This document shows positions 43,608 to 46,223 of a stretch of DNA of 64,000 nt, one piece after another. This DNA is from Fidelibacterota bacterium MT.SAG.2 (GTDB lineage Bacteria > Fidelibacterota > SORT01), in assembly GCA_004402915.1 (NCBI GenBank), contig SORU01000002.1:1-64000 (forward strand), read 5' to 3'. How positions within the stretch are numbered: the first letter of the stretch is position 1; each line of letters begins with the position of its first letter. The notes below the pieces were generated by a model. That model saw nothing but the letters and a program-made list of their open reading frames with translations. It was not told the DNA's origin and did not search any database. Both the position numbers and the translations under genes were made by a program.

Positions 43608-43982
43608 ATGAGCGGTAAAAATAGATCACGGATCGGACGAGAGGAGGCATCGAGGAAGGCATTTATCGGGCTTTGCATCGCAATGGCGGGGTGTGATTCA
43701 AAGATGGACATCAAAGAGATTTCGAAGCTCAGAAGAGTCATGGACAGATACGGATTTTCCGAGGAAGAAGTAGTGCGTGAACTAAAAGATTTTTCCAAAA
43801 TGAATATCGAGGAGGCGTTACTATATGGAAGACGGTGCATGGCTGCTCTTCCAGAGTTAGACGAGGATTTACAGAAGAGATTGTTGATTTCTCTTACAGA
43901 AATAGCCTTAGCTGAAGACGATTTCGAAGAGACTGAAATCAGAGTGATGAACACGGTTATGGATCGGTTCGTAAATGATTAA
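43608..43982 (+). CDS. TerB-like (tellurite-resistance-type helical) protein
   Basis: 124 aa; LCIAMAGCDSKMDIKEISKLRRVMDRYGFS..SLTEIALAEDDFEETEIRVMNTVMDRF resembles the TerB fold. Confidence 0.6.
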   Translation: MSGKNRSRIGREEASRKAFIGLCIAMAGCDSKMDIKEISKLRRVMDRYGFSEEEVVRELKDFSKMNIEEALLYGRRCMAALPELDEDLQKRLLISLTEIALAEDDFEETEIRVMNTVMDRFVND

Positions 43983-44138: not shown

Positions 44139-44429
44139 TCAGCCCAGACTCAGACTCTCCATATTCGAAATTACCAACTCTTTTACCGGTTGGAACTCGG
44201 GGATATGAGTAATGGAGTATTTGATCGTCTCCCCGGTAATAGGGTCGCTTTCCGCAATTTTCGAGTGTATCGAGTATTTAAAAGATCCAAGCCCCTTAAG
44301 GGTGACACTTCCTTTGTCATTTAAGGCAATTTTCATGTTGGTTGCCAAGGACTTGAGTACTTTCGCAGTCTGTTCAACGGAAACACCGCAATCACGGGCT
44401 ACAGCCCGAATGAGGTCTTTATCGTTCAT
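44139..44429 (-). CDS. HU-family DNA-binding protein
   Basis: MNDKDLIRAVARDCGVSVEQTAKVLKSLATNMKIALNDKGSVTLKGLGSFKYSIHSKIAESDPITGETIKY. Confidence 0.88.
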   Translation of the reverse strand: MNDKDLIRAVARDCGVSVEQTAKVLKSLATNMKIALNDKGSVTLKGLGSFKYSIHSKIAESDPITGETIKYSITHIPEFQPVKELVISNMESLSLG

Positions 44430-44480
44430 TTATTCCCTCCCTTTTGCCCAAAATCTTATAGATCGAATTCATCTATTTTA

Positions 44481-44500
44481 AAGGCAATAGTTGTGCCAAT
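44481..44500 (-). promoter_or_regulatory. Sigma54 (-24/-12) promoter upstream of HU
   Basis: On - strand TTGGCAC-AACTA-TTGCC, matching YTGGCACN5TTGCW in all core positions. Confidence 0.75.
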
Positions 44501-44572
44501 CTATGCTGCTGGCTGTTTTTGGCTTAGACTCTGTATCAGTGATTTTAATTAGACTGTTGAATCGGGAACTAT

Positions 44573-44617
44573 CGGCAATATATTGCCGCTTTAAGATGTA
44601 AAACGGCAATATATTGC
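44573..44617. promoter_or_regulatory. Tandem palindromic operator/UAS
   Basis: CGGCAATATATTGCCG (44573-44588, perfect palindrome) and CGGCAATATATTGC (44604-44617), 31 bp apart. Confidence 0.65.
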
Positions 44618-44656
44618 ACATTTCACATTTAAGGTTCAGAGCGGGAGAGAAAGAAT

Positions 44657-44710
44657 ATGCTCCGCATATTCGGTTGCACCATGAAAAATGAACCTCAGTA
44701 TGCGGAGCAT
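44657..44710. repeat. 12-bp inverted repeat
   Basis: ATGCTCCGCATA (44657-44668) and TATGCGGAGCAT (44699-44710), perfect arms; just downstream of the 44751 gene. Confidence 0.7.
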
Positions 44711-44750
44711 TGTGGTTGTTGGGGATGTCTAAAAATTCAAATAGGGTGGT

Positions 44751-45248
44751 TCATCTTACTATCCTGTCAAGTGAAGGCATTCTCACCGGTTGCCAGGAGA
44801 CGATGCCGTCCTTGTTGATTATTGTAGAAAATTCTAATCCTGTATAATTACCTCTTGCTATGAGCGTGAACTGCTCACCTGTAATATCTGCTACTTCATA
44901 GGTGCCCCATTCATAAGTCGAATCGATGGCGAAGTTCGTAATATCGGAACGGGTAATGATCTTTGGAGCGTCCATACCTCTGGATACCGGCGTTCTCCAA
45001 TACAATTTTGAAACTTCCGATATTTCCTGCACTCCCTGCATGAGTTGGTTAAATTCCATTAAAAGGACTTTTCGCTCTATGTTAAAGTCAGCGAGCAGAT
45101 ACTCATATTGTCCGTAAATCTTGTCCTGAAATATTTCGTTCTCAACCTTTACTTCGTGCATTACATACCAACCGATGCCGGAAGTAATTAAGATCCCGAA
45201 TATCGATATTACCAATACCACCATTGCTGATTTATTTTGATTCATCAT
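44751..45248 (-). CDS. Pilin-like / N-terminal TM-anchored hypothetical protein (paralogue of 45388-45774)
   Basis: SAMVVLVISIFGILITSGIGWYV N-terminal helix; LYWRTPVSRGMDAPKI and AIDSTYEWGTYEV motifs shared with its neighbour. Confidence 0.7.
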   Translation of the reverse strand: MMNQNKSAMVVLVISIFGILITSGIGWYVMHEVKVENEIFQDKIYGQYEYLLADFNIERKVLLMEFNQLMQGVQEISEVSKLYWRTPVSRGMDAPKIITRSDITNFAIDSTYEWGTYEVADITGEQFTLIARGNYTGLEFSTIINKDGIVSWQPVRMPSLDRIVR

Positions 45249-45387: not shown

Positions 45388-45774
45388 TTACGGTAATGTT
45401 ATCGTAGGAGTTCCCGAAACTCCCTGTTGAGTAATAGTCGCCACAATAACGACTCCTTCGTTCGCTCCGGTGGCGGTAAGTATAAAATCATCTTTCGTAG
45501 GTGTTGACATAACGAAGGTTCCATTTGCATTTGTTGAATCGGCTCCAAATACAACCACATCGGCAACTAAGAGAAAACTACGCGCTCCGCCGCCGAGTGC
45601 GGCAGGTTTACGCCAATATGCCGCTGCCGTTGATGCGATATTATTGACATCCTGGAGTAGTGCGTCCCTTTCCGCGTTGATTGCACCTGTAGTGAACATA
45701 TTAATTCCTACCACTACTGCGACTCAGACGATTATAGTACCGAGTACGATAAGCAGTAATTGTTGTTGACCCAT
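45388..45774 (-). pseudogene. Pilin-like protein gene with in-frame TGA in the N-terminal hydrophobic helix
   Basis: AAAGGAGA then ATG: MGQQQLLLIVLGTIIV-TGA-VAVVVGINMFTTGAINAERDALLQDVNNIASTAAAYWRKP; TGA at 45724-45726. Confidence 0.75.
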
Positions 45775-46223
45775 GATTCTTCTCCTTTATCTTGTTTTTT
45801 GTTTTTCCACAGTGTTACTGTTCATATTCCGCCCAACAACATGGAGCCGTTAGTATCCGTATCCGGTCCTGACTCTCCTGATCCTTATTTTTTTTACCGC
45901 CTATCATTTTTCCATCTCTGTTCATGCCACAAAGATATCTGTGCGAAGATATTGTGATATGACCCAGAGCACGTTATGCACTGTTTAGACGGTTTACACG
46001 CTAATTCTGTGACTTGTGTCATAAAATTGCGACAGCTTATGTTATCCATGTCACAATCGGTTCAAATATAATAGTAAATGTGAAATATGAAAGTAAATAT
46101 CAGCTCCCGGTTCATTTTTAATTTTCACTCTGAATTGCACAAATGATGCCGAAAAGTTAAGAAAGTTCTAAATTTTATCTTGACTATTTATAGAGGCATG
46201 ATAAGTTTACGCAGCTGTGAAAT

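Follow-up and report, generated by a model that had tools for sequence, protein, structure and literature searches.

A predicted sigma54 promoter with tandem upstream palindromes at a divergent HU-family gene in an uncultured marine Marinimicrobia family

Studies of HU and IHF mostly treat them as proteins made constitutively or under growth-phase control that assist looping at sigma54 promoters. Finding an HU-family gene behind what looks like a sigma54 promoter raises the question of whether such a protein can itself be a target of sigma54. The locus lies in a stretch of 64,000 nucleotides that was analyzed as a whole (hereafter, the window; G000:C2:1-64000) and belongs to a Marinimicrobia assembly of 1.69 Mb that is only 67% complete.

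The gene, which we call HU-A, extends from 44139 to 44429 on the minus strand and encodes a divergent HU-family product of 96 aa. It is monocistronic, and the next gene (43608-43982) is convergent. A ribosome-binding site, GGGAGGG, can be read in the sequence at 44435-44441(−), 5 nt before the ATG. Membership in the HU sequence family is indicated by a match to PF00216 (Bac_DNA_binding, E=1.3e-14) and by matches to HU chains in the PDB (E 3e-6 to 7e-4); the protein scores below every NCBIfam cut-off for HU or IHF. It resembles HU alpha and HU beta in family sequence and in length (90-96 aa) but differs from them in the arm and in charge. Where R..R.GRNPxTG is expected, the arm reads HSKIAESDPITG, with ESDPITG for GRNPxTG, and the arm arginines are gone. 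The pI is 7.9 for the window protein, 5.0-6.6 in the three orthologs computed and 5.2 for HU-B, a paralog described below; the range is 5-8, compared with 10 in HU alpha/beta. HU-A has neither the basic character nor the conserved arm of an HU nucleoid protein. The original prediction spoke of a nucleoid protein under sigma54 control: a sigma54-type module at an HU-family gene does exist, but the gene encodes a divergent, non-basic paralog and not the main HU. Because the HU proteins that appear to be sigma54-controlled are non-basic and have lost their arm arginines, the label "nucleoid protein" is unproven for them; HU-A may form heterodimers, act as an antagonist or bind DNA weakly.

A full -24/-12 consensus had been placed before the HU ATG, at 44481-44500. 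The element is there: TTGGCACAACTATTGCC occupies 44483-44499(−), and its core, TGGCACaactaTTGC (44484-44498, minus strand), fits the sigma54 pattern TGGCAY-N5-TTGC exactly. The stricter TGGCAC-N5-TTGC with 0 mismatches occurs only once in the window. Counting from the ATG (44429), the -12 GC is found 55 nt upstream and the -24 GG 68 nt upstream. Standard sigma54 geometry, which puts initiation about 12 nt past the -12 GC, would place the transcription start of HU-A at 44472(−).

Two palindromes that may act as upstream activating sequences (UAS) lie further upstream. The proximal one, CGGCAATATATTGCCG (44573-44588), is perfect and begins 90 bp before the -24 element, start to start; the distal one, GTGCAATATATTGCCG on the minus strand (44604-44619), lies 31 bp beyond it, around 121 bp upstream of the promoter. 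Both contain the 14-mer CGGCAATATATTGC, at 44573-44586 and 44604-44617, exactly 31 bp apart. Hence, the two palindromic copies described at the outset, one of them a perfect 16-bp repeat, are real, and they take the form of GCAATATATTGC palindromes at about 90 and 121 bp from the -24/-12 element. When both strands of the window were searched with up to 2 mismatches, the motif gave 4 matches against 0.46 expected, a number reached in 0/100 shuffles. It had also been proposed that other copies be sought in the genome. With up to 1 mismatch allowed, the 1.69-Mb assembly contains no further copy of the 14-mer; the module made of UAS and promoter does recur, however, at other promoters in the family.

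Orthologs of HU-A were identified in five family genomes (G000, which contains the window, to G004) that represent three genera; their proteins share 47-92% identity with the one encoded in the window. Every one of them has a -24/-12 element at -69 to -71 with palindromes upstream, and the pilin-like genes upstream of HU-A are the same across relatives. The proximal palindrome reads CGGCAATATATTGCCG in G000 and G004, TGGCAATATATTGCCG in G001 and TGGCAGAATATTGCCG in G003, and a degenerate copy of the UAS is kept about 30-31 bp further upstream in the relatives. In an alignment of four lineages, the proximal UAS has 13/16 columns invariant, the distal UAS 9/17 and the -24/-12 element 10/18, whereas the DNA separating them has 7/69 and the stretch that follows the promoter 4/34. 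Conservation of both UAS and promoter, in an intergenic region that has otherwise diverged, shows that they are not a chance occurrence. Furthermore, synonymous sites are near saturation between the G000 and G003 orthologs (dN 0.22, dS 1.40), and conservation of UAS and promoter over such a distance points to selection.

The distance from the start of the UAS to the -24 element was then compared among promoters. It is 88-90 bp for HU-A (69 in G003), 89 for a second HU-A copy (HU-A2) and 91, 112 and 110 for HU-B; the other promoters give 100.5, 101, 111, 132 and 114. Orthologous spacing has shifted by some 20-21 bp, that is, by two turns of the helix, in HU-A (89 versus 69) and again in HU-B (91 versus 110-112). 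Such changes by whole helical turns fit the looping requirement of an enhancer. For the 12 offsets below 150 bp, the observed 10.5-bp periodicity was reached by 0/5000 random draws, while p was 0.002 for the 7 HU promoters and 0.005 for all 15 promoters (including those at 207-212), values that are guides and not strict probabilities because the offsets are partly related by descent. A free period scan of offsets below 150 bp peaks at 10.40 bp (11 offsets) or 10.70 bp (12 offsets), and the 7 HU promoters alone peak near 20 bp, equivalent to two turns. Three promoters with offsets above 200 bp are out of phase and lower the periodicity signal. The helical phasing characteristic of a sigma54 promoter with a UAS is found, therefore, for offsets below 150 bp.

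The same module precedes other genes. HU-B (MTTQDLANVIA... and orthologs) is intact in all five family genomes. In each of them its promoter, TGGTAYNNNNATTGC, sits at about -61 to -64 and is preceded, at a distance of 91 or 110-112 bp, by GGCAATATACCACCG-type sites; HU-A2, found in G001, also carries UAS and promoter. A TTGACA/TATATT-like promoter precedes the housekeeping HU (MNKQELIAAIA..., pI 10), where no UAS was seen when the upstream regions of HU-family genes were read; an IHF-like gene, which directly follows another gene, has neither UAS nor -24/-12 element. In the family genomes read, HU-B is divergent from a pair encoding an ECF sigma factor and a putative anti-sigma (G000:C44, L061), and in the g1 genomes the UAS lies in this same intergenic region.

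Specificity was examined in two ways. An exact search of 245 Marinimicrobia genomes with the composite pattern GCAATATA-N76-106-TGGYAYNNNNNTTGC picked out two loci per genome throughout the five-member family (10 in all, of which 9 are directly upstream of HU paralogs) and 2 matches in the other 240 genomes; a reversed control pattern gave 1. In addition, 68 strict -24/-12 sites were picked in the five genomes without regard to the UAS, and the 240 bp upstream of each were scored with a UAS matrix built from HU sites, which makes the scores circular for HU genes but not for non-HU sites or exact patterns. UAS scores of at least 16.9 were obtained upstream of 14/68 sites, against a maximum of 9.1 in downstream control windows. 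Eleven of these 14 belong to HU genes; the other three, absent from the matrix, precede a FapA operon (G004:C5, with an ortholog in G003:C13 at 14.2), a porin-like gene (G004:C20) and Rrf2 and porin genes (G001:C26). Further members were found by starting from UAS sites; their -12 elements are weaker and their assignment is of lower confidence. They are located before an MCP gene (G001:C69), a gene for a PilJ-PAS protein (PilJ-kinase; G004:C1), an M24 peptidase gene (G003:C52), where the UAS is again tandem with copies 30 bp apart, and the gene that follows a gmhA-like gene in G002 and G003 (offsets 101 and 100). Altogether, UAS and promoter appear to define a small family-specific regulon that is not unique to HU-A.

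A sigma54 reading requires sigma54, and the absence of rpoN had been named as an observation that would overturn it. The gene is present at G000:C7:17131-17607 (TIGR02395, 388.8 bits against a cut-off of 277), together with four canonical bEBPs, the AAA+ activators of sigma54. When the bEBPs of the five family genomes were sorted into groups, only one of the groups examined, a pilus-operon type (G000:C16:1036-2430 and four orthologs), was present in 5/5 genomes. It has a PF00158 match, an AAA+ domain and an HTH, its GAFTGA loop is intact and, by sequence reading, its gene is placed between PilB/GspE-like and PilC-like genes. A type IV pilus operon and an AAA+/HTH architecture are PilR-type traits, but in all five orthologs the phospho-acceptor Asp of the receiver is replaced by Ser (MSM), as in a pseudo-receiver. 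In a comparison of 41 genomes, no member of this type was detected in the 36 other Marinimicrobia at E<=1e-90 (0/36). The pilus-operon bEBP and the UAS module have the same phyletic distribution. On this distribution and by elimination, the family-restricted pilus-operon bEBP is the best, though tentative, candidate for the activator, with a probability somewhat below one half. In about 155 kb around the genes for this and the two bEBP types considered next, no UAS-promoter pair was found, and a single weak UAS match (14.8) was discarded as a sign of autoregulation; with no UAS close to any of the bEBP genes inspected, location does not connect the activator with its site.

A different activator at the same sigma54 promoter is compatible with the main explanation, and we regard it as an evenly balanced possibility. 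It might be the LptE-linked receiverless bEBP, the C3-type bEBP or one missing from an incomplete assembly: the LptE-linked and C3-type proteins occur in 4/5 family genomes, and the fifth genome is 69% complete. However, the LptE-linked type is phylum-wide (37/41 genomes, including families that do not have the UAS module), and the C3-type (G000:C3:6565-7959 and orthologs) has a GAYTDA loop instead of GAFTGA and adjoins a conserved -24/-12 element with a different inverted repeat, TATAGTG...CACTATA. The C8-type, with an NtrX-like HTH, was rejected because it is absent from G004, a 96%-complete genome with a perfect UAS; it also falls below the cut-off of the NtrX model (383 versus 600 bits). 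Decay of HU-A, with the promoter left as a relic, may also be considered. A frameshift is found in the close relative MT.SAG.3/G002 (L035:3001-3290; G002:C9:31200-31489), where a small insertion lies near codon 18 and promoter and UAS are intact, and comparison of the window with G001 gives a relaxed dN/dS (0.51). Against decay, dN/dS is 0.16 relative to G003, the promoter is intact in five of five genomes and so is HU-B; we consider a relic very unlikely.

Slightly less likely still is that the palindromes are operators of a regulator other than a bEBP, acting on a sigma70 promoter next to an accidental -24/-12 match. Dimeric repressors also bind such palindromes, and NtrX, which binds CAAN2-5TTG sites, down-regulates some of its targets (PMC9223101). 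The UAS, GCAATATATTGC, does fit CAA-N4-TTG, a likeness that may only reflect the preference of Fis-type HTHs for such sites; here, unlike the NtrX systems, the most NtrX-like bEBP is the C8-type missing from G004. The -24/-12 element, however, is kept in every ortholog and recurs with comparable spacing before HU-B and further genes, and no sigma70 promoter was found on the HU strand in 44400-44800, where the sole sigma70-like site lies on the opposite strand and is no better than expected by chance. The least credible reading takes the palindromes for structures that belong to the pilin genes upstream, either RNA hairpins or terminators. They are indeed placed between a gene and HU-A, and in G004 CGGCAATATATTGCCG is part of a perfect inverted repeat of 38 bp, with TTTT after it. 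Nevertheless, a separate terminator-like stem precedes them, the HU-B sites (GGCAATATACCACCG) are not self-complementary and lie between divergent genes in the genomes read, and tandem copies and helical phasing would be left unexplained. This reading was rejected on account of the separate stem and the HU-B sites.

We are thus led to view the HU-A promoter as an enhancer-dependent sigma54 promoter with a UAS, an assignment that we hold to be highly probable if the identity of the activator is left aside. The activator-site geometry recognized originally is upheld by rpoN, by elements that are conserved and reused, and by spacing in helical repeats. The direct evidence is comparative throughout and consists of sequence elements, their conservation, reuse and specificity, helical phasing and the presence of rpoN and bEBPs; from it we infer binding, activation, the transcription start and the roles of the HU paralogs. 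RNA polymerase with sigma54 would wait as a closed complex on TGGCACaactaTTGC. A bEBP bound some 90 and 121 bp upstream, at the tandem GGCAATATATTGCC palindromes, would loop the DNA, hydrolyze ATP and open the promoter, and HU-A mRNA would start near 44472. The same module would govern HU-B and also, in some genomes, genes for signalling and the envelope, while the housekeeping HU would stay sigma70-type. With divergent HUs on one kind of promoter and the housekeeping HU on the other, the cell could bring in divergent members of the HU family whenever the bEBP is active.

The mechanism itself is textbook sigma54. As in promoters of the NtrC, NifA and PspF type, there are a -24/-12 element, palindromic UAS some 70-210 bp upstream, helical phasing, rpoN and AAA+ bEBPs; the differences are the UAS sequence, GGCAATATATTGCC, and the HU-family main targets. 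IHF and HU are known as architectural helpers of sigma54 transcription (PMC7962754, PMC3897727). The HU/IHF family is tied to sigma54 in both cases, but there the proteins bend promoter DNA and here an HU-family gene is a putative target. In the open-access literature searched, no precedent was found for HU-family genes under sigma54, and searching two sigma54 surveys by term returned none; nor was a sigma54 regulon described for this uncultured phylum in the literature searched. In this family, the genes most consistently predicted to be under a sigma54 enhancer module are the divergent HU paralogs themselves. Chromosome-architecture-type proteins would thereby be linked to a signal-controlled genetic switch in an uncultured marine Marinimicrobia family, and now that the UAS is defined and a regulon and candidate activator can be named, signal-dependent change of HU composition becomes testable. 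A rather unlikely speculation is that the arm-eroded paralogs, under sigma54 control, are dedicated architectural modulators (partners of the housekeeping HU in heterodimers, or antagonists) that alter looping at sigma54 promoters. Were that so, a feed-forward loop would exist in which the bEBP remodels the nucleoid upon firing.

Additional observations concern the neighborhood of HU-A, where Rfam detected only tRNAs in the window. The upstream pilin genes were discarded as UAS targets: the conserved block before them has a different make-up (TGTGAC...TCACA) and contains no UAS. This block (TGTGAC..TAACAT...GTCACA; 45960-46110, minus strand) is CRP/FNR-like and conserved in four genomes. One pilin-like gene (ATG at 45774, end at 45388) has a TGA at codon 17 (45724-45726, minus strand) where relatives have Gly (MGQQQLLLIVLGTIIVG), which is either a nonsense change or a sequencing error. 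After the pilin-like genes, a stem-loop conserved in five genomes (44640-44745, minus strand), with a terminator-like stem at 44653-44671, is likely their terminator and separate from the UAS. Its flank and loop (CAACAACCACA, AGGTT, TCATGG.GC) are unusually conserved in the five genomes, and changes in the stem look compensatory, a degree of conservation that exceeds the needs of a plain terminator.
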